Assembly (NCBI RefSeq): GCF_009720255.1
Contig: NZ_WJSP02000001.1
Span: 1-54,092, forward strand
DNA: 54,092 nt
Source: Agromyces humi
GTDB lineage: Bacteria > Actinomycetota > Actinomycetes > Actinomycetales > Microbacteriaceae
Direction: 5' to 3'
Shown: piece by piece, positions 12,410 to 43,899 of the stretch
How positions within the stretch are numbered: the stretch's first letter is position 1
Layout: the number at the start of each line of letters is the position of its first letter
Notes under the pieces: generated by a model
The model's database searches: none
What the model was told of the DNA's origin: nothing
What the model saw: the letters and a program-made list of their open reading frames with translations, nothing else
Program-made: the position numbers and the translations under genes

Positions 12410-12579
12410 CCGCCAACAATATGCCGAACGCTCAACTCGCTGGTGGCAGCTCCGATCACCTTCGGAACCTTCTTGGTCGTCAGGTCCTGTTGAACGAACT
12501 GGTGAGGGGGTGTCACCTATCCGTTTAGCAGACCCCGATCCGCGCACGAGCCGACATGGAGTGCTCCCCCACACGAGCT

Positions 12580-13872: not shown

Positions 13873-14156
13873 CTTCTATACATTGGCAGACACCCGCACT
13901 CGACATCTACTAGCGGGTGGACCATGAACCGTCAGCCGCGCAGGAACGTGGGACGCAAGAACGTCCGAGTTGGCGTGGGTTCGCCTTAGTCAATCCCATC
14001 CGGAGGTCCCGCACGTTCAACCAAGCGAGCTCTCCTTCACGTGCGTGCAGAAATCTATTGGACTAGGAACGACCGACATCCGCTCTGGCATCGTCCCGGC
14101 GACATTCGCCGCTGTGACGTGCTATCGACGGGCGGGCTACGGCCGATTCGCCACCC
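13873..14156 (-). promoter_or_regulatory. Promoter/operator region of the ApeA-like gene
   Basis: 284 bp without a credible gene between the NucS-like gene and the ApeA-like gene. Reading the minus strand, TATAGA ends about 5 nt before the GTG at 13872, as expected for a leaderless transcript. An inverted repeat, CACCCGC (13891-13897) and GCGGGTG (13913-13919) with a 15-nt spacer, covers the likely -35 area and could bind a repressor. No regulator is encoded next to it. Confidence 0.45.
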
Positions 14157-15233: not shown

Positions 15234-15253
15234 CAGTCAGAGCCTCCTCGAAA

Positions 15254-23519: not shown

Positions 23520-26500
23520 TTAGACCCGAAGACCGACCCCCGAAAGACCCGCGTTGACGATCGGCACATGACCGCGGGTCGGGTCATTCTCACGATCCGC
23601 GATCCGGCGGGCGGCCTCGAGGGCGGCGCGGGCCCGAGTGGCATCCGCTTTCTGGGCATCGGATGTCGGTTGCCCGATGCCGAGCGGACGGCCGCCGACG
23701 ATCCCATAGCGGTCGCGATACGCGGCGACAGTGGCCGCGTGGCGGCGCCACGCCTCCCCGACGGAGCCGATGGGCGGCGCCCCGAGCGCGCGCAACCACG
23801 ACTCCCCCGATGCAATCGCCTGCTCAGCCAACGCCGCGGCTCGCGACTCGATGAGGTCGGCACGCTCGCGCAGCGCGCGCCTCGATGCGGCATCCATCTC
23901 TCCGCCGGCGATCGGCAACAGCCCTGCGACGAGACGTGGCGTGTGCCCGCTACGTCCGGCTGCGGCATCCTGCATCATCGCTCGCGCAACCCGCGCACGC
24001 AGTACTGCGGCGATGTCTGCAGCATCCTCGAAACCGCGCTGGCCGACCACGCGAGCCAGCAAGCGCTCAGCATCCACCAGATGTGCCTCGGCCCGACGGA
24101 GCTCAGCCCCGAGCGGCCCGAACCCCTCCGAGCCGACCACTGCACCCGCCTGCTCGCCAGTGAGCCCGCTGCCTCGCACGAGCGCAACCCAGCGCTCCTG
24201 CTGTGCGGCGGCAGCGATGGTCTCGTACTCTGCGGCGAGCTGCGCGATCGATCCCCAGGTCTCCTGCTCAGCGGTGACCATCTCGTGCGCCGAAAGTTCC
24301 GCACCGACATGGTGAAGCACGCCGACGAGCACCGACTGGGCACTCGCGTCGACATCATCACGGGGCCGGATGCCTCTATGTGCGACATCTGGGCGGTCGA
24401 GGGCGACGTACGCGGTGTTCGCTTCGCGGCCGCGGGTCATCGCGACGTAGAGGTTCTCGCGGGTCATGCCGCGGGCGACGACGACGTGCGCGGTATCGGT
24501 CGTCAGACCCTGAGCGCGATGGGCGGTCACCGCGTACCCGAGTTCGACGTGCTCGGCAACGTACCCGGCAGGCAAGAGTGTGCTGCTCCCCCACCGGCGC
24601 CCCTGGCGCCGCGCCTCGAGCGCACCGTTCCGGTGCGTGGCGAGGACCGTCCATCGGTCGCCGTTGCGCACCCATGCCCGACCGGTCCGAAGACGCCGGT
24701 CATTGTGGCGGGTGATGATCATGTCTCCGACCGCGGCGCGGGTGCCGTCATGCAGGCTGACCTCGTGCAGGGCATCCACCCGCCCGTCGAGAATCGAGTC
24801 CGTGCGCGCCCGCTCATTCAGGGCTGCAACGGCCCCGTTCGAATCGCTGATCAGCACGCTCACCCGGCCCGCACGGGCGTCGGCCCGCCACGCGAGGTAC
24901 GCGGCATCCGCCATCTCCTCGGTGTCGCCATCCCGCACGCGGTCGTGCGCGAGATAGCGATCGATGGATGCCTCGTCGCCACGGCGCAGGCCGAGGGATG
25001 CCGCTTTCTCCCAGTCGTGCACGAATCGGTGCACATCGACGAGTTCAGGTGCATCGCGCCGGTCGTGCACCAGCATCGCGAACGCGCCGCCCGCATCCAC
25101 GGATTGCAGTTGGGCGTAGTCGCCGACGAGCAGCACCTTCGCACCTGCCGCCGCGGCGAGCGCGCTCACCCGGTCGAGAGCGAGCGTTCCGGCCAAGGAT
25201 GCTTCATCGACGATCACCAACTGGCCTGCGCGGAACGCGGCGCCATGGGCGATGTGGTTCTGCCACCACTTCGCGAGGTTCTCGGTTGCTATGGCGAGGT
25301 CTTCGGCGAGGACGTGTGCGGCTGCGGACGACGGGGCGAGGCCGATGACGGAGCCGCGGCCGTGCTCGGCCTCCCAGGCGCGCCGGAGCGCGCCCATGAC
25401 CGTGCTCTTGCCAGCGCCGGCCGGGCCGACGAGCACGTCGACGATTCGGCCCGACCCGACGATCGCCTGCAACGCGGCCGACTGATCATCACCGAGGGAA
25501 CCGCCGCCCGGCAGGCGTCGGCGGGCGTCCTCGTGCAACGTGGTGATAGCGATCGTCGGCCCCGAGAAAACCGTCGCCCGCTCGCGAAGCCGCGCCTCTG
25601 CGGCGATCAGTGCCTCGGAGCTGTAGACGATGGAGTGCTTCGGGCGGAAGACTGACGTGCCATCATCGCGCTGGAAGACGGCCGGGCTGGACGCGAGCTC
25701 GGGCGGGGTGATGCGCAATGACGCACGCTCGGCCGCGTCGACGGCGAGTCCGATGATGGCCTCACGATCGGACGCCGTTGCGAACCGGTATTGCATGGTC
25801 TGACGTGCGGCCTCGGCGGCGAGATTCCAGTGCCGCCACGTTGCACGCTTCTCGCTCACTGCCTGCAACACTTGTGTGCCGAGGGTTGGAATGACGTCGA
25901 GCGGCATGTCTTCCGCCCGCAACACCGGCGGCGAAACATCCGCGGATGCAATGCGCGCCCATTCGGTTGCATCCTGCCCGAGCACCCGCGTTGCACGCTC
26001 CCGCCATCGTTGCGTGAGCTCGGCGAGTGAGCGCACGTGTTTCTCGGGACGCGTCGACAGCGTCGCCTGCGCGCGCAGCTTCATGATCGTCGCCCGACTC
26101 GGGCGGTGGCCGCGCGCATCCACGTACGCCGCGATGAGGCGATCGGTCACGGCGTCGATGTGGCGCGAGCGTGTCGAGAACTCCGCGACCAGCGTCTCGG
26201 GCACCGCGGCGATCGCCCAGGCCGGATTGCGGTCGCGGCCGCGCTCGCGCTGCTCCCAATCGACGCCGAGCGCACGCGTGAGCGCATCCATGAAGAGCGC
26301 CTCGTGCATCTCTGACAGCGCCACGACCGCGCCGTGCAACGGGCGGCCGTCGAGGGATCGCCATTTGCCGTCGAGCACCGTCTGCACCTTGTTGCTCACT
26401 ACGACATGCGTGTGCAGGTGCGGATCGCCCGCGCGACTGTCGAAGTGATCGAACGCAGTCGCGATCAAACCAGCGACCTCGACCTGTGCGACCGCGCCAT

Positions 26501-26978
26501 CGCCAGCCGCGACTCCGGTGCGGGTGGCGGCAACCTCACGTTCCATGAACGCGACCACCTGCGCGACCGCGTCGTGGTGTGCGGTCACGATGATCTCCTG
26601 CGTCGCGGCATCTGCCACGCCCCAGAGCACGCTCGCCGACTTCGGCACCGAGAAGGTGAAGTCGAACCCGGCCACGGCGCGCTTGGCGCCCTCGTACTGC
26701 GGGAACGAGCGGCCGAGCGGATCACCGGTGACCGGATCCCGGCCAAGCCCGATTTGCAGTTGAAGCTGTTCCTCGGTGACTTCATCGCCAGGGGCGAGCT
26801 GCCCGTCGCCGAGTCCGCGGACACCGCTGCCCAACCAGCGTCCAGGCGGCGTGCCCTTCGCCTCGTAGTACCGCGTGAGAGGCGTCGCGAGTGAGCGTTC
26901 ACCGTCGTCGGCCGCGACTGTGCGGAGCAGGTACCGGAATCCGTCCCCGGCACTCATGACCCGCATCGACACCGTCAC
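23520..26978 (-). CDS. MobF-family conjugative relaxase-helicase
   Basis: 1152 residues from a GTG at 26978 (GGAGG about 10 nt upstream). The N-terminal TrwC-type relaxase carries candidate catalytic tyrosines (Y16, Y37/Y38) and the HUH metal site HLHTH (187-191). The C-terminal half is a RecD2/TraI-like SF1 helicase with Walker A GPAGAGKST (about 515-523), IVDEAS, GDYAQLQS and VTAHRAQGLT. Such proteins nick oriT, stay covalently bound to the 5' end and unwind the transferred strand. The gene is transcribed away from the phospho-signalling operon. An oriT would be expected close by, most likely in 26979-27220. Confidence 0.9.
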   Translation of the reverse strand: MTVSMRVMSAGDGFRYLLRTVAADDGERSLATPLTRYYEAKGTPPGRWLGSGVRGLGDGQLAPGDEVTEEQLQLQIGLGRDPVTGDPLGRSFPQYEGAKRAVAGFDFTFSVPKSASVLWGVADAATQEIIVTAHHDAVAQVVAFMEREVAATRTGVAAGDGAVAQVEVAGLIATAFDHFDSRAGDPHLHTHVVVSNKVQTVLDGKWRSLDGRPLHGAVVALSEMHEALFMDALTRALGVDWEQRERGRDRNPAWAIAAVPETLVAEFSTRSRHIDAVTDRLIAAYVDARGHRPSRATIMKLRAQATLSTRPEKHVRSLAELTQRWRERATRVLGQDATEWARIASADVSPPVLRAEDMPLDVIPTLGTQVLQAVSEKRATWRHWNLAAEAARQTMQYRFATASDREAIIGLAVDAAERASLRITPPELASSPAVFQRDDGTSVFRPKHSIVYSSEALIAAEARLRERATVFSGPTIAITTLHEDARRRLPGGGSLGDDQSAALQAIVGSGRIVDVLVGPAGAGKSTVMGALRRAWEAEHGRGSVIGLAPSSAAAHVLAEDLAIATENLAKWWQNHIAHGAAFRAGQLVIVDEASLAGTLALDRVSALAAAAGAKVLLVGDYAQLQSVDAGGAFAMLVHDRRDAPELVDVHRFVHDWEKAASLGLRRGDEASIDRYLAHDRVRDGDTEEMADAAYLAWRADARAGRVSVLISDSNGAVAALNERARTDSILDGRVDALHEVSLHDGTRAAVGDMIITRHNDRRLRTGRAWVRNGDRWTVLATHRNGALEARRQGRRWGSSTLLPAGYVAEHVELGYAVTAHRAQGLTTDTAHVVVARGMTRENLYVAMTRGREANTAYVALDRPDVAHRGIRPRDDVDASAQSVLVGVLHHVGAELSAHEMVTAEQETWGSIAQLAAEYETIAAAAQQERWVALVRGSGLTGEQAGAVVGSEGFGPLGAELRRAEAHLVDAERLLARVVGQRGFEDAADIAAVLRARVARAMMQDAAAGRSGHTPRLVAGLLPIAGGEMDAASRRALRERADLIESRAAALAEQAIASGESWLRALGAPPIGSVGEAWRRHAATVAAYRDRYGIVGGRPLGIGQPTSDAQKADATRARAALEAARRIADRENDPTRGHVPIVNAGLSGVGLRV

Positions 26979-27229
26979 CGCGTCCTACCTCCGTCGTCGC
27001 GGAGAAGGTGCGCCCTCGATCTGCAAGAGGCGTGGCGATCTCTGATGACAAGATTCGAGCGGTCGGAGGACCCCGAACAGCCGACTGCGACCACCGAGAT
27101 GTCCGGTACACCAAACTCAATCGGTGATGATACAAGTCTCGCGCGATGTGGGGTTGTCGAGTGGCCGCCTAGAACCGGTCGACACCGGGGGTCGACCCGC
27201 TGTCAGTCACCGTCAATAGGATGTTCGGC
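26979..27229. promoter_or_regulatory. Divergent promoter region, possible oriT/operator
   Basis: 251 bp between the MobF relaxase (minus) and the FHA/VWA/kinase operon (plus). A perfect inverted repeat, GGTCGAC (27177-27183) and GTCGACC (27191-27197), lies 33 bp upstream of the operon start. A -10-like TAGGAT (27217-27222) is 7 nt before the ATG at 27230, so a leaderless transcript with the repeat over the -35 region is plausible. No convincing nic-site consensus could be recognised by eye. Confidence 0.4.
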
Positions 27230-28291
27230 ATGGAGCAATCTTGGGGCAAGGCGCCCGCGCCGAGCGTCATCATGGACCTTTCCCCGATTGCGAGGCTCGA
27301 CGGCAATGCCCGGTGGGAGTTGGTCGATGCGACCGTCGAAGCGTGGCGAATCCAGGTTGACCCCGCCGCTCGGTTCTACGGCGTCGCAGACAACAGCCTC
27401 TACTACAAGCTCGATCCGAAGGGTCGGCAGAAATTGGGCGAGTGGAAACGCAGCCGCAGGGCGCGGTCAGTTTCTTGGGCGGACCCTGAGCTGCTCGAAC
27501 TCGCGACGCAGTTCAGTGATGCATCGGTCGTAACGACCGATCTTTTCCGTGACCATCGACGCACGTTCCCGTGGCTCCAGGGTACGACCCGAATATGGAA
27601 GCCGGTCTTTGTCGCCGGCACCATTCGCTTCGAGCAGCTTGACTACAGCCCGATCCCGGCGGAGGAAGTCTCGTGGCGCATCGAAGAGGCCAACCTCACC
27701 CCAAAGGGCTTCGGCGGCAAGGAAGTCCGCGATGCTCTTAGGTACGAGTGGGCGTGCACAAATACTGCGTGTCTTTGGTCCCGGAAGGCCGTGATCGAGG
27801 AAGACCCAGCGTTCAAGGACGGCGATGTCGTCTGCCCGTCTTGCTCCGCTCCTGCACGGCGACTGGCGGTCCGTGCGGGAACGAAGGAGATCGTCTTCTT
27901 CCTCGAAGACGACGAGATCGACAGGATCCCGCTCGCCGAGCGAGCAGAACTGGTCATCGGACGTAGTCGTGACCTCGGCAGGTATGACGTGCGCGAGGTG
28001 CTTGACGGAGCGGCTGCCGCGCGCATCAGCCGCGACCACCTCAAAGTGGTCAACAGAAACGGCCGCGTGTTTGCTGAAGAACTCGGTTCCAAGAATGGAA
28101 CCGAGTTTGTCGCTGCGGAAGGGCGAGTCGTACGCCTGCAGACCGGAATTCAACAAGCCCTCGCCACTGGCGAGCGGATCGCACTCGCGGGCGGCATACT
28201 GAACCTTCGCCTCTCCGGCAAGCACCGGCCCCGAGGTACGTACGAACCCGACTTGACGACTCCACCCTTTCTCCGAAACGAAAGTCACTAA
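27230..28291 (+). CDS. PIN-like RNase / zinc ribbon / FHA domain protein
   Basis: 353 residues from the ATG at 27230 (AGGA 8 nt upstream); an ATG 9 nt earlier is an alternative. The N-terminal ~140 residues look like a PIN/NYN-type nuclease: acidic residues D16 (VIMDLSP), D54 (VADNS), D85 (WADPE), D104 and D108 in TTDLFRDHRRTFPWL. A four-Cys zinc ribbon follows (C176, C181, C202, C205). The C-terminal FHA domain has GRS (244-246), SRDH (267-270) and NGT (289-291), the phosphothreonine-binding pattern. FHA suggests recruitment by the kinase two genes downstream; PIN suggests RNA cleavage. It is the first gene of a seven-gene operon, 2 bp before the VWA gene. Confidence 0.75.
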   Translation: MEQSWGKAPAPSVIMDLSPIARLDGNARWELVDATVEAWRIQVDPAARFYGVADNSLYYKLDPKGRQKLGEWKRSRRARSVSWADPELLELATQFSDASVVTTDLFRDHRRTFPWLQGTTRIWKPVFVAGTIRFEQLDYSPIPAEEVSWRIEEANLTPKGFGGKEVRDALRYEWACTNTACLWSRKAVIEEDPAFKDGDVVCPSCSAPARRLAVRAGTKEIVFFLEDDEIDRIPLAERAELVIGRSRDLGRYDVREVLDGAAAARISRDHLKVVNRNGRVFAEELGSKNGTEFVAAEGRVVRLQTGIQQALATGERIALAGGILNLRLSGKHRPRGTYEPDLTTPPFLRNESH

Positions 28292-28293
28292 CC

Positions 28294-28968
28294 ATGTCGA
28301 TGTTCACTGACATTGAGCCCGTCGCGGCGCGAGCCATTCCCGTCATCCTCTTGCTCGACACAAGCGGAAGCATGCGAGCCGACGACAAGATCGACGTGCT
28401 CAACGATAGTGTTGCCGAGATGATCAGGGAGCTCGCGACGGTTGATGCGGGCCACGGGTCGATCAAGCTTACGCTGATCACTTTCGGCGGGGACGCCGCG
28501 CAAGTCCTTCAAAAAAACGTTCCTGCAGGCGAGATCAAGTTCACACCACTCGTGGCCGCGGGCAGGACACCCATGGGGCAGGCGCTCACCCTCGCGCGCC
28601 AACTCGTCGAGGATCGGGAGGAGGTCCCCGCGCGCGCGTATCGCCCGACGATCGCTCTCGTCTCCGATGGCCTGCCCGTGCCAGGCCTGACCGACGAACT
28701 TGACGCGCTAATCAGTAGCGAGCGCGGTTCGAAGGCGTCCAGATTCGCGTTGGCGATCGGTGCCGATGCAGACCGCGATGTGCTCGCCAAGTTCGCATCC
28801 GGCGGCGACGTCAAAGAAGCAAGCGAATCGGCCGAAATCCGGAACTTCCTTCAATGGGTGACTAACACGGTCACCCAGGTGACCTTGTCCATCTTCGAGG
28901 CCGATGTGAACCCTCAGTCCCTGTCTGACGAATCGATCCAGCGGCTCCAACAAGACGATGCCTTCTGA
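28294..28968 (+). CDS. TerY-like VWA domain protein
   Basis: A 224-residue, essentially single-domain von Willebrand A protein. The metal-ion-dependent adhesion site is complete: DTSGSM (22-27), T92 in GRTPMG and D125 in SDG. Length and architecture match TerY-type VWA proteins, which with a kinase and a PP2C phosphatase form the TerY-P triad implicated in stress or phage response. Here the partner order is FHA protein, VWA, kinase. The end overlaps the kinase start by 11 bp. It probably acts as a metal-dependent scaffold or phosphorylation target. Confidence 0.85.
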   Translation: MSMFTDIEPVAARAIPVILLLDTSGSMRADDKIDVLNDSVAEMIRELATVDAGHGSIKLTLITFGGDAAQVLQKNVPAGEIKFTPLVAAGRTPMGQALTLARQLVEDREEVPARAYRPTIALVSDGLPVPGLTDELDALISSERGSKASRFALAIGADADRDVLAKFASGGDVKEASESAEIRNFLQWVTNTVTQVTLSIFEADVNPQSLSDESIQRLQQDDAF

Positions 28969-30313
28969 TATTCGCACCGGCAGCCTCGTTCGCGACGACA
29001 CGGGTATCGAGTACGTACTAGGCGACGTCATTGGCAAACCCGGCGCCCAGGGCATCGTCTACCGCGTGGAAGGCCAACCCGGCTTCGCAATCAAGCTACT
29101 CAAGCGCGAGTCAGACCTGGCTCGGATAGAAGCGGTCAGGCGCCTGCCCCTTGACGGGCTCCGCCTATCCCAACCGCTGTCGCTGATTCGCGACGGCGGG
29201 ACCGGCTATCTGATGCCGCTTGCCGGTGACATGAAGCCTCTCGCGGACCCCTACCTGCCGCGCGAATTCGGGCCACGAGAGACGAGTGGCGTTGACTGGT
29301 ATAGGGACACCGGTGGACTCAGGCGCCGTCTCGCGATAGCCGCGAATGTCGCGCAGTGCCTCGCATCCCTCCATGAACGCGGCCTCGCCTACGTGGATCT
29401 GAACCCCAACAACGTCATGGTCTCGGATGATGTGTACCGCGACGATACGTGGCTTATCGACACCGACAACCTAACGTCCCGAGCCAACCCCAAGTGGGAC
29501 ATCGTGGGGTTCCCGGGCTATGCGGTCCCCGAACGCGTCACGCGCAAAGCTCCGCCGTCCACCCTGGCGGACGCCTATACGCTGGCCATCGTTGCGTTTC
29601 GAATGCTGGTGCTGCGTCACCCGCTCGAAGGCGCCGCCGCTGACGCCCTTGACGGCGACGAGGCCGCAGACGCGATCAACACCGGGCTACTGGCATATGT
29701 CGGCGACCTTGTCGACGACTCGAATCGTCTTCCCGCAAGGAGCATGTCGTCGAAGCTATTTGAACTGGCGCTCAGCCGGCGAATTCATGGACTGCTTCGT
29801 GAGACCTTTGCCGACGGCAGGCTGGACCCGCTCAAGCGCCCTGGCGCAGGCCGATGGCGAGACGCGCTCTGGCTCGCTCACGACAACGTGGTGGACTGCG
29901 CGGCGCGTTGTGGCTGGAGCTACTTCCGCCTAGTCCGTAGCTGCCCCGCATGCGGGGCAGCTACGCAACCCGTCGTGCTGGCGACCGTGTTCCCGGCGTG
30001 GGGCGAAACGGAGTGGGCAGACGTCGACCCGCAGGCGCGCGACTCCCTCACGCTCTCATCTGATCGGCCGACAGAACTCGGAGAAAGACACCTCTGGGGC
30101 GCGTACCGATCGACCGACCCGCAGGTCACTTTCAGACCCGTGAGCAAGGGGTTCGAACTCAGCGCTAGTGAGGGGCTACACGTCACCGATGGCGCCGGGA
30201 AGAAGGTAGCGCGGATTCCCTACCCCGAGACCAGAAAGGAATACCGCGTCAGGATCGAGGCGAGCGGCCGTCCGACGCGCACGATCCGCATCACCGCTGT
30301 CGAGTCTCGATGA
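28958..30313 (+). CDS. Ser/Thr protein kinase-like protein with zinc-ribbon tail (TerY-P kinase type)
   Basis: A 451-residue protein. The N-lobe has GKPGAQGIVYRV and K46 in AIKLLKR. The catalytic loop is YVDLNPNN (D147, N152) instead of HRDxxxxN, and the metal motif is DTDN (168-171) in place of DFG. The VGFPGYAVPE segment matches the activation/APE region. All catalytic residues are present in variant form, so activity is likely. After the helical C-lobe, C314/C318 and C329/C332 form a small zinc ribbon, and a beta-rich tail follows. TerY-P kinases carry similar zinc-ribbon extensions. No PP2C phosphatase gene accompanies it. Confidence 0.8.
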   Translation: MPSDIRTGSLVRDDTGIEYVLGDVIGKPGAQGIVYRVEGQPGFAIKLLKRESDLARIEAVRRLPLDGLRLSQPLSLIRDGGTGYLMPLAGDMKPLADPYLPREFGPRETSGVDWYRDTGGLRRRLAIAANVAQCLASLHERGLAYVDLNPNNVMVSDDVYRDDTWLIDTDNLTSRANPKWDIVGFPGYAVPERVTRKAPPSTLADAYTLAIVAFRMLVLRHPLEGAAADALDGDEAADAINTGLLAYVGDLVDDSNRLPARSMSSKLFELALSRRIHGLLRETFADGRLDPLKRPGAGRWRDALWLAHDNVVDCAARCGWSYFRLVRSCPACGAATQPVVLATVFPAWGETEWADVDPQARDSLTLSSDRPTELGERHLWGAYRSTDPQVTFRPVSKGFELSASEGLHVTDGAGKKVARIPYPETRKEYRVRIEASGRPTRTIRITAVESR

Positions 30314-33300
30314 AGCTCGCACAGCTGGCGTACTCCGACGAGAGGGCCTTCACCCTCGTTCCATTGGCGACCACCACGCTCACCGTGGGATCCCTTGTCA
30401 GTCTGGATGTGACAGCGGCCGGAGTGGCTATTCGCCGGGACGCGGAGGTCCTGCTGTGCGAACCTCCCGGCTTCCAAGATGCCGACTGGCTTGCAGATGT
30501 CACCGCGAGAGGCGCATATCTCGCAGAGTTGTTGGCCGTCGATGACCCAACGAATCGGAACCGCGGTGAAGTCAAGCTTCGTGTCCTTCGGTACGACGGC
30601 GTCGAACGATGGGCAGAGTCCCGTGGCGTCGGCGTCGACGATGGCACCGTCGCGGATGTCAACCGGTACCGCAGGCGCAACGACCCCTCAGATGCGGTGC
30701 TGGCATGGTTGAGGTCGCAGCTGCTTCTGGACTCGCCGGATCCTGTCATCGTGGTTGCTGCGAGCAGCGGTCAGCTCAACGGCGCTGGCTTCCGCGTCGT
30801 CGGATCAGGCGTCGTTGCCGACATCGCCCTCGACGGTGACAAGCTCCTCATCAGGAGAGTGACCCAGAAGCCTCGGAATCGCGAACAGAAATTCGTCCTG
30901 GTCAGAGGAGACCTCGAAATCCGGGATCACACCCGCGTCGGACTCGTGACCGAAGAAGACCGCGAAGAACTACGACGGCTGTCATCTGCAGAGAACGCGT
31001 TCCTAGCAATCTGGAACGAGTACAGCCAGCTCGAAGAGAAAGCGGCGCGGGAGGCCGCACAAGACATCGGGTGGGCAGCGTACGACCGATACCGCATCCT
31101 AGGAGATGGGTCAATCGAGTTTGACCTTGTGCGGAGCACTCAAGCCGAAACGCTGCTCGATCGGGTCGGCGGCGGCACCTTCGGCCTCGAGGCTTCCCTT
31201 TCACGGAGCTTCCTTGACGATCGCCGGAAGCCCGACCGTCGGTTCGGGGAACGCGCCCGATCCGCCGACAGCGGCTTCGTGATCGGCGAAGCGCGCGCGA
31301 CCGAACGCGGCACCCTCGTGCTCATGCCAGACCGAGAAGTCAAGGGTGGTGATATCCCCGACAAGGGGGAACTCTACGGCGTCTACACGACCGACTCGAT
31401 TCGAATCGGCCGACGAGATGCGGCCCAACAACGAGTCTCCCTTGCACGAACCGCGCCGACACGCCAGCTGTCGCTGATACTCGCGGGTCGGCGCCCTGAC
31501 CCAGCCGGGCGGTTGCAGCACCATGCCCCGCTGTCCGCACGTGTTCGCCATCTGCTGGGGGGAGAGCCAACTCCGGCACAGGTCGAAGCCATCGACCTCG
31601 CGATCAACTCTCAGGATCTGGTGCTCATCCAGGGACCGCCAGGAACTGGAAAGACTCGCGTCATTGCTGCCATCCAGGCGCGGCTCGCCGAACTTGGCAA
31701 TGGCCAGCTAGCGAGCAATAAGCGAGTGCTGTTCGCGAGCTACCAACACGACGCAGTCGAAAACCTCATTCAGGCGGCGGACGACGGGGCTCTGCCGGCA
31801 GTGAAGATTGGCTCTCGACACCGCGGCGCAGAGGACGACGCATACCTCCAAGCATGGGTTTCGGACCTCCAACAGCGGCTGGAAGCCCGGTACGAAGGCG
31901 AAAAGCCGAGTGAACTCCTTCATCAGCTTCGCAAACTCCGCGAGAGGGCCACGGCCTACAAGGCCCAACCGTTCGACGTTCCGGGAACAGTCGACCTACT
32001 CATGTGGCTATCCGCGACGGCAAAACTGATTGATGGTGCTGTCGCGGGGAAGGCGAGGCGACTCGCAAAGCGAATCGAACAAGAACTCGGAGGCGGCGGA
32101 TCCACGAGGGCGCACAAGCAAGTCGAGACCCTCGCCCGGCGCCTTCGCTCGACGCCCGATAGCTTCGCCGACGATGGTCGTGAACGCGCGCGCGACGCCG
32201 CACTCTACACGCCTATCCGAGAGTTGCTGGATGACCGCCAACGCACAATGCTCGACGACGCGGCGACCGCAACCGACGTGCACGCGGCGTCGACGAACAT
32301 GGAGATCATCCGGCGAATCTTGCTCGACAAGGTCCGGAACGCGCGTGCGGCGTCCAGCATCATCGCCGTTCGTCCCGAAGTCCATGACCTGCTTCAACGT
32401 GCAATCGACGCGGTCGAGGCCGAGGTGCGAGCCTCGACAAGCGATATCGACCTCGCAGTCGAGGACTACCGAGATGCTGTTGCTCACCAACCAGGGGCGA
32501 TCCGCAAGTCACTGCAGTCGCACTCCCGAGCGCTCGCGGCAACGTGCCAGCAGTCCGCGTCGGGCGCCATGCGCGACGCACACCTGGGGCTGTTTGACAC
32601 GGTCATTCTGGACGAAGCTGCCCGGGCGAACCCGCTCGACTTGATGATCCCGATGAGCCTCGCGCAAAGCCGCATCATCCTTGTCGGCGACCATCGTCAG
32701 CTGCCGCAGCTTCTCGATGACGAGCTCCTACCCCTGCTTTCCCAGCGACACGACAGCGACGTCGTGGAGCTGACCTTGCGGCAGTCAATGTTCGAGCGGC
32801 TCTTCACCACCCTTCAAGAACTCGCGAGGGCGGATGGGCACAAGCGAGTTATCACACTCGATCGGCAGTTCCGCATGCACCCCACCCTCGGTAGGTTCAT
32901 CAGCGAACAGTTTTATTCGCCATTCGGGGAGCACTTGGAGAACGGCATCAATGATCCCGGCCGCTTCCGGCATGGCCTTGCGCAGTACGGTAGTTCAGCT
33001 TGCGGGTGGATCGATGTACCGGCCTCGGCTGGAGCGGAGCAACGCGTCGGGACGAGCATCGCCCGCCCTGCGGAGGCCAGGGTGATCGTCACGGAACTCG
33101 TGGCCGCGCTAAGGCAGTCTGACGAGTTGACATTTGGGGTCATCACGTTCTACTCCGGGCAGGTTGACGAGATCTGGCAGCGAATGCACGAGGCGGGTCT
33201 GGCGGTTCGCAATCGGCAGGGCTTGTGGGTCACTAACCCTGCCGCGCCATTCCTCTACACCGCGCGTGGCTTCCCCCGCGTACGTATTGGCACGGTCGAT

Positions 33301-33555
33301 GCCTTCCAAGGCCGGGAGTTCGACATTGTGTATCTGTCGACGACACGGTCAAGCCCGGCTGGGGCTCGTAGATCCGATCCGTTCGGCTTCCTCGTGCTGC
33401 CCAATCGCGTGAACGTCGCGATGAGTCGCCAGAGGAAACTCCTCATCGCAGTCGGTGACGCGGCGCTTGTGACCTCAAGTGTGGGTCGAGCCGCGGTCCC
33501 GCCTCTGGCCGCCTTCCACGAGTTGACAGGGGGCTCCGATGGATTCCGGCGATAG
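30310..33555 (+). CDS. SF1 helicase, Upf1/DNA2-like (AAA_11/AAA_12)
   Basis: A 1081-residue protein starting in an ATGA overlap with the kinase. The N-terminal ~400 residues are beta-rich and unassigned, possibly OB-like. Helicase core: GPPGTGKT (about 442-449), DEAA (768-771), GDHRQLPQ (about 794-801), LDRQFRMHP, and VDAFQGREFD (997-1006) with VAMSRQR near the end. A roughly 250-residue helical insertion lies between motifs Ia and II. Upf1-like helicases of this kind move 5'-3' on RNA or DNA and occur in coiled-coil McrBC (CoCoNuT) operons. The end overlaps the next gene by 17 bp. Confidence 0.85.
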   Translation: MKLAQLAYSDERAFTLVPLATTTLTVGSLVSLDVTAAGVAIRRDAEVLLCEPPGFQDADWLADVTARGAYLAELLAVDDPTNRNRGEVKLRVLRYDGVERWAESRGVGVDDGTVADVNRYRRRNDPSDAVLAWLRSQLLLDSPDPVIVVAASSGQLNGAGFRVVGSGVVADIALDGDKLLIRRVTQKPRNREQKFVLVRGDLEIRDHTRVGLVTEEDREELRRLSSAENAFLAIWNEYSQLEEKAAREAAQDIGWAAYDRYRILGDGSIEFDLVRSTQAETLLDRVGGGTFGLEASLSRSFLDDRRKPDRRFGERARSADSGFVIGEARATERGTLVLMPDREVKGGDIPDKGELYGVYTTDSIRIGRRDAAQQRVSLARTAPTRQLSLILAGRRPDPAGRLQHHAPLSARVRHLLGGEPTPAQVEAIDLAINSQDLVLIQGPPGTGKTRVIAAIQARLAELGNGQLASNKRVLFASYQHDAVENLIQAADDGALPAVKIGSRHRGAEDDAYLQAWVSDLQQRLEARYEGEKPSELLHQLRKLRERATAYKAQPFDVPGTVDLLMWLSATAKLIDGAVAGKARRLAKRIEQELGGGGSTRAHKQVETLARRLRSTPDSFADDGRERARDAALYTPIRELLDDRQRTMLDDAATATDVHAASTNMEIIRRILLDKVRNARAASSIIAVRPEVHDLLQRAIDAVEAEVRASTSDIDLAVEDYRDAVAHQPGAIRKSLQSHSRALAATCQQSASGAMRDAHLGLFDTVILDEAARANPLDLMIPMSLAQSRIILVGDHRQLPQLLDDELLPLLSQRHDSDVVELTLRQSMFERLFTTLQELARADGHKRVITLDRQFRMHPTLGRFISEQFYSPFGEHLENGINDPGRFRHGLAQYGSSACGWIDVPASAGAEQRVGTSIARPAEARVIVTELVAALRQSDELTFGVITFYSGQVDEIWQRMHEAGLAVRNRQGLWVTNPAAPFLYTARGFPRVRIGTVDAFQGREFDIVYLSTTRSSPAGARRSDPFGFLVLPNRVNVAMSRQRKLLIAVGDAALVTSSVGRAAVPPLAAFHELTGGSDGFRR

Positions 33556-34756
33556 CCGCGACCTGCCGGCCTACCTGCTGGGACGTTGGCCGTTGCAACG
33601 GCGACATGCGCTTCTCACGCCCGCGGTCAGATGGCGCGTGTTCATCGAGGACCAGCAGCAGATCGACAACGACGTCATCCTGAACACGGTGCTTCGCATT
33701 CGCCAGGCGGGCGAAAGGGATGCGGCGCGCATCGCGGATCTGCTTCAGTTGCCTGAAGATCTGATCCTGTACCTGCTCGCTACGGCCGACCAACAACGGC
33801 TGGGTGCGGCAAACTCCGGTCAGGCGGTCGTCGCTTTGCGTTCGACAGTTGGCTGGGTCTACCGCGACGCCGTGACGGGCGAGCTGTGGCCCGAACCCGG
33901 GGAACAGGTCGAGCCCCTCGATATCCGGTTCACGGGCCGGTTCAGAGCCAGGTTTGAGATGGGGACGGCAGGCCGACGAACCTCGATTGACTCGCTGCTG
34001 CTCGACTCGCGGGAGTCAGGACAGTTGATGCCGTCCGCGACCGAGCTCGCGCGTTTCAGCCGATCCAGCGATGCACACAAGAGGACTGCCGTGATCAGTT
34101 CGGGAGAGCATTGCCTTGTTGTCAGCCCGGTCAGTCGGGACAAAAGCGGGCTTGCGGTGCTCACAACCCAGGATGCGCCACAGTTGAGCTTGGGAAGACT
34201 GCTCAACAGTGCCCGCGAGCAGTTCGAGTCAGTCGCCAGCTGGGCGAACGAAGTCCCGTTCGGAGCGGAGGAAGGCAAGAAGTCCTCGCTCGAAGTCGCA
34301 CTTGACGAACTTGCCGCTCTGCTTGGAAGGCTTGGCATCGGTGACTTCCGAACCCTGGCTTCCGCGCACGTCGTCAGCGTGATCGAGCTAACGCTCGGTC
34401 GATGGGTGGATGACTACCGCTACCGGACCGGTCTCGATGGAACGGCCGGCCGGCTGTCAGAAGATGTGGCGCAGCTGGTTGCCACGATCTATGGCTTGTC
34501 GCAGGACGAGGTTCGTCGCTGGGCATCGTCGCCCCGGTCTGACTGCCGGCGAAAGGTAGTTGAGCTCTTGGTCGCACGCGGCCGGTCGGCCGACCCGTTG
34601 ATCCGAGAAGTTGCGTCGGCAACCGCCCGATACGATTCCTTGGCGAGCAACGATGCTTCCGCGAGAGATCTAGAAAAGCTCGCACACGCGGTGCTCGACC
34701 TGGGGAGAATCCTGACAAGCGAGGAATGGAGCGCAGATGGCCAATCGACGGGGTAG
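33539..34756 (+). CDS. Unknown conserved-operon protein
   Basis: A 405-residue protein; no domain is confidently recognised. Residues 45-80 (RIRQAGERDAARIADLLQLPEDLILYLL) look like a winged helix-turn-helix. The middle (about 95-215) is beta-rich and the C-terminal half is helical. It overlaps the helicase by 17 bp and the coiled-coil ATPase by 20 bp, so it is an obligate member of the operon. It may link the helicase to the McrB-like ATPase or bind nucleic acid, but this is positional inference only. Confidence 0.7.
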   Translation: MDSGDSRDLPAYLLGRWPLQRRHALLTPAVRWRVFIEDQQQIDNDVILNTVLRIRQAGERDAARIADLLQLPEDLILYLLATADQQRLGAANSGQAVVALRSTVGWVYRDAVTGELWPEPGEQVEPLDIRFTGRFRARFEMGTAGRRTSIDSLLLDSRESGQLMPSATELARFSRSSDAHKRTAVISSGEHCLVVSPVSRDKSGLAVLTTQDAPQLSLGRLLNSAREQFESVASWANEVPFGAEEGKKSSLEVALDELAALLGRLGIGDFRTLASAHVVSVIELTLGRWVDDYRYRTGLDGTAGRLSEDVAQLVATIYGLSQDEVRRWASSPRSDCRRKVVELLVARGRSADPLIREVASATARYDSLASNDASARDLEKLAHAVLDLGRILTSEEWSADGQSTG

Positions 34757-37004
34757 GGGAAACCCGCCACCCCAGCGCGCGGCACATCGCAGCGCAGTGA
34801 CCGATGCCCGCAAGGTGGACGAGGTTGAGAAGGCGCTTGCTGAACTGCCCGACCTCCCGGAGGAGGTTGCGGAGGAGGTATTGCCCGTGGAACCCGAGGC
34901 AGTCGAGGCCGACCCCGCCCGACTGAAGCGGTTGTATGACCAAACTAGGCGGCACTTCGACTACTACAAGCGTGAAAGCGACAAGCTCTCCGCGAGGGAA
35001 GAATCGCTCCGCGAGCGAGAGTCGGCAACCAAGGAACATGAGACCGAACTAGCCGGCCGCGAGGCTGAGCTTGCGTCGGCTGAGAAGGAAATCGCCGCGC
35101 AGCGCCTGTCTGCAAAGGCGGGCTTCGTTGACGACCTACGGGCAGCTACCAAGGAAGTGTCAGGCAAGCTCGACGCAATGCTGGTCGATGCCGCGACCTG
35201 GGGTGCCGAGGGCAAAGCGAAGGCATTGGCCGCAGCATCGGCTGAACAGGAGCGGCTCGATGTGGAGCGTGCACAGCTCGCGACGGAGTGGGAGTCGCTC
35301 CGGAGGTTGCAGGCGGAGGTGCGGGCGCTCCAGACACAGGTTGGCTCCGAAGCTGAGTTCGTGAAGGCTATGGAAGGCATGCTGGACGCCCGAATCCAGC
35401 GCCGGGTCGAGGCTGCAGTTGTGTCGCTCCGAGAAGACCTCGAAGATGCAACAGGTCAGTTGGAAGCTGCGCGCGAACGAATCGGGGCGAAAGAGGCGGA
35501 AGTCCAGCGTCTCCGCAACCAACTAGCTCAGTTCGGCGACGACCCCGAAGGGCTGAAACGACGAGTCGAAGATCTATCACAGAAACTGCGTGAGCGGAAG
35601 GATGAGCTATCCCGCAGGCCTCCAGAGGCCGAGATTGCCGACTTGCGCGCCAAGGCGTCCCGTGTTGCCGAGGCTGAAGGCGAAGTTGCCTACTGGCGTG
35701 CCCTGCATGACCAGATCGACTCCCAACTCCGCCGCTACCTGGTCAACGTCGGAGAACTGGAGATCGTCCGCGACGAGCGCGACGCCCTAACGGCACAGCG
35801 CCAAACACTTCGGCAGGCAATTGCGCAGCAGAAGAACGACTGGGAGGAACTCCAGACGAAGGAAAGCTCCGCCAGGCCGTTCCCTGCGTGTTCGACGTAC
35901 GACGAGGAACCGTCGCTCACGCGCGAGGTCCCTGGCCGCGAGGTCGATGATCTGGCAGACCTCGTCGACGAAATCCGCAACCGCATGGCGACGAACTCCT
36001 CGACAAGCTTCTTCTATTCGGAAGCGGACGTGCGAATCTTCCTTGCCGGCTTGGCAGCGAGTCGCCTGCACCTCCTGCAAGGCATTTCAGGCACCGGCAA
36101 GACGAGCCTCCCTCGCGAGTTTTTCAAGGCACTCGCCGGCGACACGGCGGTTCAGATTGTGGAGGTGCAGGCAGGCTGGCGAGACAAGGACGACCTCTTC
36201 GGCTACTACAACGCGTTCGAGAAGCGCTTCGCCGAGAGCGAATTCACGAAAGCCCTATACCGGGCGCTGCTGCCTGCCAACTCCGATCGTCCGATGGTCA
36301 TCGTCTTGGATGAGATGAACCTGGCGCATCCTGAGCAGTACTTCAGCGTGATGCTCTCGCTGCTCGAAAACCTGGAGACGGGGCAAGCACGCCTTGACCT
36401 TCTAACGAGCGAGATCCCCAACCTGCCTCGGAAGTTCGAAGGCTCCAGGCTTCCGCTCGCCCGCAACGTCTGGTTCGTCGGAACAGCGAATCACGACGAG
36501 ACGACCGTGGCGTTCGCCGACAAGACCTACGACCGCTCACATGTCCAGGTGCTGCCCCCCAACTACGAGCGTTTCCGGCCGACCATCGTCGGTAGGGCTG
36601 AGCCGATCTCGTTCCACGCGCTTGATCATTCGTTCAAGCGCGCGGCTCGTGACCACACCAACGAAGTGGCCGGTGTGAAGGAATTCCTCGCCAGCAGCAT
36701 GCGCGAGGAGTTTGCGAAGTTCGGCGTCGGGTGGGGCAACCGTCTTGAACGGCAGATTGAGCGCTTCGTCCCGGTGGTGCTCGCAGGAGAAGGGGATCTG
36801 ACCGAGGCGGTCGACCACCTGATTTCCACGAAGCTCGTGCGCAAGCTCGAAGACCGCTTCGGCGTGCGGCCCGAAGATCTTGAGTCCCTCGCCGACAACA
36901 TCGAGATCCACTGGGATCAGTTGGAGCGCGCCGGCCATCCGAGCAAGACCCTCGAGGGCCTTCACGCAGAAGCAAGGAAGCTGCGCGGCGGTTTCGGCTC
37001 GTGA
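34737..37004 (+). CDS. Coiled-coil + McrB-like AAA ATPase
   Basis: A 755-residue protein. Residues about 60-395 are an almost uninterrupted charged coiled coil (KLSAREESLRERESATKEHE and similar). The C-terminal AAA module has GISGTGKTS (about 449-457), the tract QAGWRDKDDLFGYYN, Walker B VIVLDEMNLA (about 521-530) and sensor I FVGTANHDETT. That combination (GxxGxGKT, DEMNLA, TANxD) is typical of the McrB/MoxR-related dynein-like clade. A coiled coil fused to a McrB-like motor followed by a DUF2357 partner is the defining layout of CoCoNuT-type systems. GTP versus ATP use cannot be told. A GTGA overlap couples it to the next gene. Confidence 0.85.
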   Translation: MANRRGRGNPPPQRAAHRSAVTDARKVDEVEKALAELPDLPEEVAEEVLPVEPEAVEADPARLKRLYDQTRRHFDYYKRESDKLSAREESLRERESATKEHETELAGREAELASAEKEIAAQRLSAKAGFVDDLRAATKEVSGKLDAMLVDAATWGAEGKAKALAAASAEQERLDVERAQLATEWESLRRLQAEVRALQTQVGSEAEFVKAMEGMLDARIQRRVEAAVVSLREDLEDATGQLEAARERIGAKEAEVQRLRNQLAQFGDDPEGLKRRVEDLSQKLRERKDELSRRPPEAEIADLRAKASRVAEAEGEVAYWRALHDQIDSQLRRYLVNVGELEIVRDERDALTAQRQTLRQAIAQQKNDWEELQTKESSARPFPACSTYDEEPSLTREVPGREVDDLADLVDEIRNRMATNSSTSFFYSEADVRIFLAGLAASRLHLLQGISGTGKTSLPREFFKALAGDTAVQIVEVQAGWRDKDDLFGYYNAFEKRFAESEFTKALYRALLPANSDRPMVIVLDEMNLAHPEQYFSVMLSLLENLETGQARLDLLTSEIPNLPRKFEGSRLPLARNVWFVGTANHDETTVAFADKTYDRSHVQVLPPNYERFRPTIVGRAEPISFHALDHSFKRAARDHTNEVAGVKEFLASSMREEFAKFGVGWGNRLERQIERFVPVVLAGEGDLTEAVDHLISTKLVRKLEDRFGVRPEDLESLADNIEIHWDQLERAGHPSKTLEGLHAEARKLRGGFGS

Positions 37005-39061
37005 CCGGAGTGCATGACCGTGTGACCGGGGCCCGGTCACCACAACGGGCGGGTTGGTCGGGTCGGTGGGCTTCGCTGTCGGTGCACCAACTCGATATCG
37101 CCAGTGGAAGTGATTCGCGCGATTTCGCAACTTCAGAGGATTTGGACGCACTTGGGTTGCTCAGGCAGTCGCTGGCTGCAGCGGCGGATTCGGATTCGTG
37201 GGCTTCCATGGTCAGCACACCGCTCCTCTCGGGGCATGACGAAGACACGGTTGATCTGGAGCAGCGCGAGAAGTTACTTGCTGATCGACTGCCGTCAATC
37301 GCACACATCACTGAGCGTTTCGTGACCCGTCTCGGCGAGCGGTCGGAATTACTCCCCGTCGCTCGCGTGAAACGACCCGCCAGGCGGGCGATTGAACGCC
37401 TCGCAGCCCACACCGAGGACTGGGCGGGCAGGACGCTTGCGGGGCCGGTTCCGCGTCGTGCCCTTGCGGTCACCCGCGAGCTCGACGCGAATCTCTACGA
37501 GAACCGCATGGTCACAGAACTCGTCCACCCGATCCTGAGCACTGCGATGGTGACGAGAATTCGCCGACTCCGGCGACTCGTTTCCGACCTCGCCGACTTG
37601 AAGGATGCTCAGCACGTCGGAACCCACCGGCGAACCAGCCGCCTGTACTCCTTCTGGGGAGAAGACGCGTCGAAGGCTGCGGAGAATCATGTCCACGCCG
37701 GCAACACTCTCGAGGTACTCGAGAAGGTCGCCGCATGGATCCAGTCGCTCCGCGCGAGCACACTGTCCCGCGCGCTCAAAGGCAAGGTCACGGGCCAGCG
37801 CAGTTTGAGGCGCACGAACGTCATCAACAACGACCGTCACTATCGGTCGGCAGGCGAGGTCTGGACAGCGTACGAGCGTCCGGAGGTCTTTGAAGAGTCT
37901 CACGATGAGCGTCAACGGCGGCTCACTTCCCGCCACAGAGCATTTGACCAGTACGTGCTCGGACTCGTTGTCCGTGGCTTGCGCAACCTGGGATACGCAC
38001 CGCTGGAGCAGCGTCTGCCCGCACCCGGTGGCCATGTCGACTTGTCGGGCACCTGGGGGACGGCCACGCTGCACCGTCGATTGGACGGTGTTCTTGAACT
38101 CACTTCTCAAGGCGTCACGACCCGCTTCGTACCGCTCCTCGACCTCGTCGGGCCTGATGATGACGCACTTGCCGTCGCACTCCGGTGGTCCGAGCTGCGG
38201 GACATAGTCGATCGGAAGACAGTGGTCGTATATCTTGGCGCCTCCACTGCGATCCGTGCGCATCCAAACAGGACGCTCGCGGCAGCGCTGAGCTCCGCAG
38301 TGGACGACGGGTTGGAGCAGGGTGGTCACCTCACAGGGATCCCGGTGTCACCTCTGGAGACGACGAGCCTGGAGCGTGTCGCACGCGGCGTCGCGCTCGC
38401 AGTCCTCACACCGCCCCTGATGGCCTATCCGCCTGCGCTCAATGTTGCTGACAGCGCCTTGCCCCAGAGAATCGTCGACCACCTCGCGGCTGCCAACATC
38501 GGAGAGTCAGGAGCCCCGTCGGTCTTCCATCAGTCAGGCAAGACCTTGAGGTTGCGACGGCCGCTTGTCGCTGCGGAGCAGGCGAGGCTCACGGGGGTTG
38601 TTGGCGACCTGACGGCGGCGACGAGGAGCACCGGTTGGCAACGTGACCTCGGCCCATCAATCTCGCTGCTGCAGGCCGCGTTCGACAGTGCATCGACCCA
38701 ACTCGCTCCCCTTCTTGGGTGTCCCGTGTGCTCCGCTGTCGCAGAGCCGAGGCAGTTCACGCGGGATGGGGACGTGTTCTTGATTGAGTGCCGATCGTGC
38801 AGCACTCGCTGGGGACACGAACGGTGTGGAAACTGCCAAGCGAGGATCCCGATTGTCGAGCCCTCCCAGGAACTCCTCAACCCAGAAGTCGCCGGACCGG
38901 GTTGGGTTGAGCGAGTGTTCGGCCAAGAAGCGCTTGCTTCGCCTTGCTGGGCCAGAAAGGCTGCGAACCGGTATATCTGCCCCGAGTGCCGCGTATGCCC
39001 GCTCAAGACCGATGCGCTTGGGTCAGAGTGCGGACGCTGCCATCGTGCCGAAGTTGCGTGA
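37001..39061 (+). CDS. DUF2357 (McrC-like) protein with C-terminal zinc clusters
   Basis: 686 residues starting at a GTG overlapping the AAA stop (GTGA). The DUF2357 signature is clear: RRAIERLAAHTEDWAGRTLAG, VTRELDANLYENR with E167-N-R. A conserved region at about 295-350 follows. DUF2357 proteins are McrC homologues that partner McrB-like AAA motors and normally contain a PD-(D/E)XK nuclease. In the expected stretch (RRLDGVLELTSQGV...FVPLLDLVG) I find D but no ExK. The C-terminal 120 residues hold at least five Cys pairs (CPVC, CRSC, CGNC, CPEC, CGRC), probably two or three zinc ribbons. It is the last gene of the operon. Confidence 0.8.
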   Translation: MTGVHDRVTGARSPQRAGWSGRWASLSVHQLDIASGSDSRDFATSEDLDALGLLRQSLAAAADSDSWASMVSTPLLSGHDEDTVDLEQREKLLADRLPSIAHITERFVTRLGERSELLPVARVKRPARRAIERLAAHTEDWAGRTLAGPVPRRALAVTRELDANLYENRMVTELVHPILSTAMVTRIRRLRRLVSDLADLKDAQHVGTHRRTSRLYSFWGEDASKAAENHVHAGNTLEVLEKVAAWIQSLRASTLSRALKGKVTGQRSLRRTNVINNDRHYRSAGEVWTAYERPEVFEESHDERQRRLTSRHRAFDQYVLGLVVRGLRNLGYAPLEQRLPAPGGHVDLSGTWGTATLHRRLDGVLELTSQGVTTRFVPLLDLVGPDDDALAVALRWSELRDIVDRKTVVVYLGASTAIRAHPNRTLAAALSSAVDDGLEQGGHLTGIPVSPLETTSLERVARGVALAVLTPPLMAYPPALNVADSALPQRIVDHLAAANIGESGAPSVFHQSGKTLRLRRPLVAAEQARLTGVVGDLTAATRSTGWQRDLGPSISLLQAAFDSASTQLAPLLGCPVCSAVAEPRQFTRDGDVFLIECRSCSTRWGHERCGNCQARIPIVEPSQELLNPEVAGPGWVERVFGQEALASPCWARKAANRYICPECRVCPLKTDALGSECGRCHRAEVA

Positions 39062-43667: not shown

Positions 43668-43899
43668 CGAGGGAGGTCGGAGCAAGTTCAGCACTCCCGC
43701 GGTGTCCGAGCTGTTGTTGCACATGCGGGGCTCCGCGATGCCGCTCACCTACGCCCGGAGCATCCCGGGCGCAGACGGGCACACCTATGCGTCAGCTGCG
43801 CGCACAGCGCGCGCGGCGTTCGCTTCGAAGGGTGGTCACCGTGTCGACGAAACCGCAGCCGCATCACGTCTGGGAAGCGAAGCTCGTCGAGCTGCATGA
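43660..43899 (+). CDS. Possible small protein upstream of the ArdC-like gene
   Basis: A 79-residue frame beginning inside the last operator palindrome: ATG 43660 with GAGG 7 nt upstream. It overlaps the ArdC-like start by 59 bp in another frame. The N-terminal half (KFSTPAVSELLLHMRGSAMPLTYARS) is protein-like; the C-terminus reads as a by-product of the next gene. No family is recognised. It could instead be leader DNA. Confidence 0.3.
   Translation: MLNEGGRSKFSTPAVSELLLHMRGSAMPLTYARSIPGADGHTYASAARTARAAFASKGGHRVDETAAASRLGSEARRAA

Follow-up and report, generated by a model that had tools for sequence, protein, structure and literature searches.

A Type II CoCoNuT operon of Agromyces humi that begins with a PIN-FHA gene: a candidate phospho-gated nuclease swap

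Introduction

In the passages of Bell et al. 2024 (PMC11090510) that deal with these systems, CoCoNuTs are described as McrB-like GTPases with an NxD motif, fused to coiled coils and accompanied by McrC partners; NxD in place of NxxD marks the CoCoNuT branch of the GTPases, and the systems, which are derived from McrBC, are predicted to target RNA. In Type II CoCoNuTs these are joined by the UPF1-like helicase CnuH and by CnuE, which combines an elongated winged helix with HEPN; as a rule there is also a TerY-P triad consisting of a VWA protein, a PP2C phosphatase and a serine/threonine kinase (STK) with a zinc ribbon. Type II CnuH is further characterised by SPB and RTL domains in its N-terminal part and by a helical insertion that follows Walker A. 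According to the same passages, the PD-(D/E)xK site of Type II CnuC is inactivated, HEPN or another predicted nuclease invariably accompanies a CoCoNuT whose McrC nuclease is absent or inactive, and the HEPN RxxxxH motif occurs in the majority of Type II CnuE proteins but is not universal. Here, we describe a seven-gene operon from a stretch of 54,092 nucleotides of Agromyces humi (NZ_WJSP02000001.1), referred to below as the window, in which a PIN-FHA gene stands in front of six genes of the Type II layout.

The main text of PMC11090510 contains neither "PIN" as a whole word nor "FHA" as a word start, its supplements lying outside this check, and its passages on the kinase/VWA modules of CoCoNuTs do not name the targets of these modules. 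A combination of PIN with FHA is described in the part of PMC7159879 concerned with vWA-MoxR ternary systems, which is a different context. No paper uniting FHA, NYN domain, PIN, kinase and Actinobacteria was found in a search whose scope left the subscription literature largely outside.

Results

Seven open reading frames (ORFs) were found on the plus strand of the window at 27221-39061, in the order PIN-FHA, VWA, Ser/Thr kinase-zinc ribbon, CnuH, CnuE, CnuB and CnuC. The first two genes are separated by a 2-bp gap, and the following junctions are overlaps of 11, 4, 17, 20 and 4 bp. The order of six of the seven genes is that of a Type II CoCoNuT preceded by TerY-P-like signalling genes. An earlier reading of this DNA from its letters (the sequence-only reading) had listed seven plus-strand genes with overlaps of 4-20 bp and one 2-bp gap, which the ORF coordinates confirm; the operon start it had given, 27230, falls in the same ORF but is an internal ATG, the ORF itself beginning at 27221.

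The identical seven-gene order was found in Nocardia rhamnosiphila (L023), in Lentzea albidocapillata (L024) and in genome G681 from the order of the Nocardia (L040). The set was also found split across two contigs (L037 and L022) of one metagenome bin labelled Armatimonadetes; these contigs overlap by 563 bp at 94%, so that they are probably strain variants, and they were counted as one operon. The five operons carrying the PIN-FHA gene (window, L023, L024, L040 and L037/L022) are called the clade below. Protein identity of the relatives' operon genes to those of the window was 33-66%, the value of 33% coming from the cut CnuB fragment in L037, which argues that the gene order has been conserved across real divergence and not by chance. 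The gap between the PIN-FHA and VWA genes was 2, 8, 22 and 2 bp in four operons, the VWA start in L040 being ambiguous. The sequence-only reading, which had treated the seven genes as a single integrated machine, was thus right that they belong together, and the unit is conserved.

The features that define CoCoNuTs were found in gene 6 (34737-37004), which encodes the coiled-coil McrB-like GTPase CnuB. It matched Pfam AAA_5 (E 5.5e-9) and the PADLOC model PDC-M26A (E 1.2e-31), with SMC-type matches across residues 25-378 (E 2e-9 and weaker). Residues 583-589 read TANHDET, in which N585-H586-D587 (36489-36497), followed by E, is the NxD signature as defined in the passages of PMC11090510 cited above. 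NxD was present in 13/13 CnuB-type proteins, of which five belong to the clade, seven come from Type II-like operons and one comes from a Klebsiella operon of Type III-A-like layout. In a maximum-likelihood tree of 18 CnuB rows, a Type II-like group of 12 was separated from 6 other McrB rows with support of 99/98, and the PIN-FHA clade (100/100) was nested inside this group, with inner forks at 89/89 and 80/80. The clade was likewise recovered at 100/100 in the CnuH tree (13 rows). The deeper branching order in these trees is limited by long branches, and the seven Type II-like reference operons were typed by gene layout, not through a published list or tree. The rows taken into the CnuB tree from one set of candidates were L003 and L004 (the proteins of L025 and L026), L006, L008, L010, L016 and L017; L005, L007, L009, L011-L015 and L018 were left out as short, without ORF, without Walker A pattern or not tried. 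L025, L026 and L016 entered at full length, the Walker A pattern being unmatched, and L022 represented the metagenome bin, the cut CnuB of L037 being unused.

The order VWA-PP2C-STK-CnuH-CnuE-CnuB-CnuC was found on plasmids of Deinococcus, Pseudanabaena, Polaromonas and Rhodoferax, and the order on a Nostoc plasmid was the same minus PP2C. Two genomes of the window's class (G246/L025 and G161/L026) carry VWA-STK-CnuH-CnuE-CnuB-CnuC, also without PP2C. Gene 4 (30310-33555) encodes the UPF1-like SF1 helicase CnuH, with matches to AAA_11 and AAA_12 (E 1.9e-32 and 4.4e-33, respectively) and 29-35% identity to the helicases of the seven Type II-like operons; AAA_11 profile positions 5-251 were stretched over residues 423-799, leaving approximately 130 extra residues as an insertion after Walker A. 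Gene 7 (37001-39061) encodes the McrC-like, DUF2357-type protein CnuC. It has a YENR block, YEN(R) being common to 13 aligned CnuC proteins, is 26-29% identical to the annotated DUF2357 proteins of L027, L028 and L030, and ends in a zinc-ribbon region with six CxxC motifs (38720-39040). No D/ExK motif was conserved among the 13 aligned CnuC, an alignment that included L033 and left out L032. Judged by these motifs, the trees and the layout, the seven-gene operon is a CoCoNuT of the Type II lineage, derived from McrBC. As a side observation, CnuC on the Annamia plasmid (L033, 12261-14611) comes after an 81-aa ORF whose match to CnuB is confined to the end of that protein; this may be a CoCoNuT in decay.

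The front end of the operon resembles the TerY-P triad in two of its three members. Gene 2 (28294-28968) encodes a TerY-like VWA protein (PF13519, E 4.9e-10; PADLOC TerY, E 0.0016) whose MIDAS-type residues, DTSGS, T and D, can be seen in the window sequence. Gene 3 (28958-30313) encodes a Ser/Thr kinase of the TerY-P type (PF00069, E 3.8e-9) with a C-terminal zinc ribbon; in an alignment of 12 sequences, the kinase lysine (AIKLL), the aspartate (YVDLNPNN), IDTDN and the paired zinc-ribbon cysteines were conserved. A PP2C phosphatase was searched for with four queries, and no tblastn match at E ≤ 0.01 was found in the window, L023, L024, L037, L040 or L022, in agreement with the earlier statement that the operon has no phosphatase. 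Loss of PP2C was considered as a marker of the clade and rejected, as L025, L026 and Nostoc L031 lack the gene as well.

Gene 1 (27221-28291) encodes a protein of 356 aa that starts with a PIN domain of the Regnase/PRORP-like kind and continues with a cysteine linker and FHA. The PIN domain (residues 12-143; 27254-27649) was modelled with pLDDT of 76-95 in ten-residue blocks over residues 11-140, except 66 at 111-120, and most of the linker and FHA part had a pLDDT below 50. Foldseek matched the PIN model to the PIN domain of ZC3H12C (E 3.7e-5, probability 1.00) and also to those of ZC3H12B and PRORP, and VIA gave Z scores of 13.5 for PRORP2 and 13.4 for ZC3H12C over 131 residues at 2.7-2.8 Å. 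In an alignment of 14 PIN-FHA rows, from which L041 (fusion), L061 (N stretch) and L064 (contig end) were left out, D19 and D107 were conserved in 14/14 members and D57 and D88 in 13/14, and all four were present in 5/5 operons of the clade. If the N-terminal alignment (model residue 12 on 134) is ungapped, D19 falls on residue 141 of MCPIP1, the catalytic aspartate of that enzyme. In the linker (27755-27844), the zinc-ribbon-like cysteines C179, C184 and C205 were conserved in 14/14 homologues, and C208 in 5/5 of the clade, being mostly H in distant ones; these cysteines would be expected to bind zinc. The FHA domain (PF00498, E 9.6e-6, residues 245-321; 27953-28183) retained G247-R248, S270-R271-x-H273 and G293 in 14/14 homologues and T294 in 13/14. 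Mean identity within the clade was 56.3% for the PIN part and 47.4% for the FHA part. On the model and the conserved residues, gene 1 is a PIN protein carrying a phosphothreonine-reader (FHA) domain, with predicted nuclease activity.

Relatives of gene 1 were found neither in plasmids and phages (tblastn, E ≤ 0.01) nor in IMG/VR viral contigs (pattern scan). Sequence searches of the PDB with genes 1 and 5 gave nothing at the limits used, and a search with the PIN part of L023 alone gave one irrelevant match (E 0.74). ORFs upstream of VWA in L027, L025, L026 and L028 were considered as PIN-FHA relatives and rejected, there being no Pfam support for the five ORFs tried; the upstream ORFs of L027 and L026 do not align with gene 1, the L026 contig reaching only 1285 bases upstream.

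Gene 5 (33539-34756) received no Pfam, PADLOC or NCBIfam assignment. When residues 22-168 (33602-34042) of the five clade sequences were compared with seven Type II-like CnuE proteins by hhalign, the winged-helix regions aligned with a probability of 96.7 (E 3.8e-10); among the seven, six matched the PF24409 winged-helix profile at E up to 1, the best at 1.4e-6 and the match in the member shown lying below the cut-off. By its position and winged-helix profile, gene 5 is CnuE, and the idea that it represents a wholly new family was rejected because its winged helix aligns with that of CnuE. The HEPN catalytic motif was not conserved. At one aligned place, R(N/D)x3-4H was present in 6/7 CnuE proteins from operons without a PIN-FHA gene and in 0/5 from operons with one. 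This 12-row count excluded Annamia L033, where no CnuE was found, and Klebsiella L032, for its Type III-A-like layout; L032 had an Rx4H string at the place of the HEPN motif in the first alignment. The CnuE translations used for L025 and L026 have no defined start.

The two halves of clade CnuE have diverged to different degrees, with a mean pairwise identity of 49.6% for residues 1-240 and 26.2% for residues 241-405. The clade proteins are 401-421 aa long, compared to 479-547 aa in five annotated plasmid operons, and their C-terminal part showed no profile similarity to Type II-like CnuE. In the structural model, the C-terminal domain (residues 240-401; 34256-34741) was helical with moderate confidence, and the top VIA match was Csm6 residues 294-451 (Z 8.8, rmsd 4.3, 144 aligned residues; the next unrelated row had 6.7). 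We take this stretch of Csm6 to be its HEPN region. The gene 5 model had a mean pLDDT of 46.9, which makes the Csm6 match weak evidence; both this model and that of gene 1 were built from three-row alignments, and a Foldseek search with the gene 5 model gave nothing at E ≤ 0.001 (best 0.33). On this low-confidence model the domain is possibly a degenerate HEPN fold, helical-bundle matches at such Z scores not being proof. As the HEPN active-site motif is gone and the winged helix is kept, clade CnuE is probably an adaptor.

These results also narrow what is new about the operon. The FHA, VWA, kinase, SF1 helicase and AAA domains named by the sequence-only reading are supported by Pfam; its PIN and DUF2357 calls correspond to weak matches below the cut-off (E 0.032 and 0.033, respectively; the PIN part reached 5.2e-4 in L023 and 0.0041 in L024). 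Its comparison with CoCoNuTs and TerY-P-like signalling genes is borne out by the NxD motif, the CnuB tree and the operon layout. The 405-aa protein that it could assign to no known kind turned out to be CnuE. Its statement that the composition matches no system that can be named did not hold for six genes, which have the Type II CoCoNuT layout, and held for the PIN-FHA gene and the loss of the HEPN motif. It had noticed the PIN-FHA gene; the loss of the HEPN motif was beyond its view. What sets the operon apart from the Type II layout is therefore narrower than that reading had supposed.

PIN-FHA genes also occur outside CoCoNuTs. With the gene 1 profile at E ≤ 1e-10, matches were found in 3/397 genomes from the Nocardia order, namely the starting genome G396, G681 and a third with a distant relative, and in 11/394 genomes of the window's class (its own and ten distant). 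At E ≤ 1e-40, the starting genome was the only match among 200 genomes of the Lentzea family, and likewise among 199 of the window's family. No CoCoNuT relative was detected in the 5-20 kb fetched around 12 distant PIN-FHA loci (blastp, E ≤ 1e-3). A Ser/Thr kinase gene adjoins the PIN-FHA gene in seven of these 12 (L041, L055 and L057-L061), and in one case the two overlap by 4 bp. Five of the seven loci were scanned with Pfam, which supported the kinase in 5/5; four of these kinases are fused to WD40. This recurrence of kinases beside PIN-FHA genes suggests that a unit of this kind has been combined with a CoCoNuT in the operon. At L041 (5671-9405), the PIN-FHA-like region forms the end of a 1244-aa ORF, which may be a natural fusion or simply over-long.

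The operon lies on an element that looks mobilisable. A TrwC/TraI-type relaxase-helicase gene (23520-26978, minus strand; TrwC, E 3.4e-88) is located directly upstream and divergent from the operon, and an ArdC-N antirestriction-type gene with a weak metallopeptidase match (43787-44902) is found downstream; from these two genes, the element is probably mobilisable. A ParB-N protein gene is present at 47664-48782. A second defence-like cluster occupies 8369-21134 on the minus strand and includes an MmeI-type restriction-methylase (E 2.8e-292 to the PADLOC Type IIG model), a DEAD helicase, a T5orf172/MUG113 protein, a PDC-S11/NucS-like protein (E 3.1e-152), two GmrSD-N proteins and one protein whose ApeA-like HEPN match falls below the cut-off.

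Discussion

Since no HEPN motif is conserved in clade CnuE and no D/ExK motif in CnuC, the PIN domain is the only nuclease domain recognised in the operon that has a conserved active site. For this reason, and because of the rule in the cited passages of PMC11090510 on CoCoNuTs with an inactive McrC nuclease, we propose that the operon is a Type II CoCoNuT with a phospho-gated nuclease swap, in which a mark set by the kinase recruits the PIN RNase through FHA. We give this reading an even chance. In an ordinary Type II system, CnuH would work with CnuE, whose winged helix bears the HEPN RNase, the PD-(D/E)xK site of CnuC being dead. In the clade, CnuE would retain the winged helix as an adaptor, and the PIN domain encoded by gene 1 would cut RNA in trans. 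Once infection is detected, the kinase and VWA pair would mark a threonine of CnuE, of CnuH, of CnuB/C or of the kinase with a phosphate. Docking of FHA on this phosphothreonine would deliver the PIN RNase to the RNA handled by CnuH and the CnuBC GTPase assembly, and cleavage of this RNA would arrest the infection or the cell. Gating by kinase and FHA is plausible given the signature residues of kinase, VWA and FHA and the occurrence of PIN-FHA genes beside kinases elsewhere. Four elements of this reading are inferred: activity of the PIN domain, its substitution for HEPN, its gating by phosphorylation and a role of the operon in phage defence. That the clade is a distinct Type II CoCoNuT subtype, in which a mobile PIN RNase replaces the covalent HEPN and is recruited only once the helicase-GTPase complex bears the mark of the operon's kinase, is put forward as a tentative and somewhat doubtful extension.

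Several observations weigh against the nuclease swap. The five operons form one clade, so that gain of PIN and loss of HEPN coincide only once and their association is statistically untestable. The CnuE of Deinococcus L027 (11102-12565) has C in place of the HEPN arginine, with the histidine kept and another Rx4H string upstream; since no PIN-FHA gene was found in L027, decay of HEPN needs no PIN partner. Absence of PP2C is likewise not peculiar to the clade: L025, L026 and L031 lack it too, and a PIN-FHA gene was found in none of them. Five of the 12 distant PIN-FHA loci have no adjacent kinase (L054, L056, L062, L063 and L064); in L054 a kinase lies approximately 10 kb away, and L064 is a 5.5-kb contig. 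The RTL domain reported for CnuH could itself be a nuclease. Finally, S280, R288 and D291 are invariant in 5/5 clade CnuE within an otherwise fast-changing C-terminal domain, which may thus still act, even cut, and the window CnuE has Rx4-6H strings at 271 and 376 which, although non-conserved, make activity of that protein conceivable.

These last residues are also the starting point of another explanation, that CnuE is still a working RNase through a diverged HEPN site and that PIN-FHA is an extra effector or a second echelon. The helical C-terminal domain with its best structural match in Csm6 fits this explanation, and two nucleases per system would suit the tandem-nuclease theme of CoCoNuTs as presented in the passages of PMC11090510. 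However, no R...H pair is conserved among the five clade CnuE, and the C-terminal domain has approximately half the identity of the winged-helix half; we regard this explanation as unlikely. We consider it similarly improbable that PIN-FHA is a regulator, which would trim operon mRNA or host RNA when the kinase is active, or silence the system in place of a PP2C brake. Gene 1 does lie at the signalling end, near VWA and kinase in an operon where no PP2C was found, and distant PIN-FHA genes lie beside kinases in stretches of 5-20 kb that gave no CoCoNuT genes; a regulatory PIN-FHA would, however, leave the clade with no nuclease with a recognised active site, and L025, L026 and L031 do without PP2C and yet have no PIN-FHA gene that could be found. 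The presence of PIN-FHA outside CoCoNuTs in the window's class, in 10/394 genomes besides its own, would also be expected of a separable kinase-coupled module that has hitched onto the operon and acts largely alone. Against this, the junction of gene 1 with VWA is tight and the order is fixed in all five operons despite 33-66% protein identity, and we hold such a module to be quite improbable.

If the nuclease swap is true, a nuclease would be delivered in trans by a relay of kinase, phosphothreonine and FHA, a type of control more familiar from damage signalling in eukaryotes than from restriction in bacteria. The fusion of FHA to a nuclease within the operon points to gene 1 as a likely reader of the kinase mark. 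A swap of nucleases would, moreover, support the view of CnuH-CnuE as a general platform for changeable RNases.

Among known systems, the PIN domain of gene 1 is closest in fold to the RNases Regnase/MCPIP1, ZC3H12B/C and PRORP (VIA Z up to 13.5). Regnase-type PIN RNases carry a CCCH finger and PRORP proteins carry PPR repeats, whereas the PIN domain of gene 1, the activity of which is predicted, is joined to a cysteine linker and FHA. The actinobacterial PIN-FHA and kinase pairs (L041, L055 and L057-L061) have in common with the operon the PIN-cysteine linker-FHA architecture and the neighbouring kinase, but four of the five kinases scanned are fused to WD40, no CoCoNuT genes were found in the stretch fetched, and their identity to gene 1 is approximately 25-29%. 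MkoA of Mokosh is a kinase-helicase fusion with a phospholipase D partner. CnuH matched the PADLOC MkoA model with E 7.2e-88 and gene 3 its N-terminal part with E 2.6e-5; in contrast to Mokosh, kinase and helicase are separate genes here, no phospholipase D match was found in the seven proteins, and the CnuBC pair is present. Over 28958-33555, kinase and helicase match successive parts of the MkoA model (67-247 and 315-1081), as if MkoA had fused such a pair.

Compared with the TerY-P triad, as described in the parts of PMC11090510 cited, the operon has PIN-FHA in front and no PP2C that could be found in the window, and it shares the VWA with MIDAS-type residues adjacent to an STK with a C-terminal zinc ribbon. 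From Type II CoCoNuTs, as set out in the same parts, it differs in having PIN-FHA first, a shorter CnuE without the conserved HEPN motif and no PP2C found. It resembles them in the NxD coiled-coil CnuB, the DUF2357-type/zinc-ribbon CnuC without conserved D/ExK, the UPF1-like CnuH, the winged-helix CnuE, the overlapping genes, and the VWA and STK-zinc ribbon at the 5' end.

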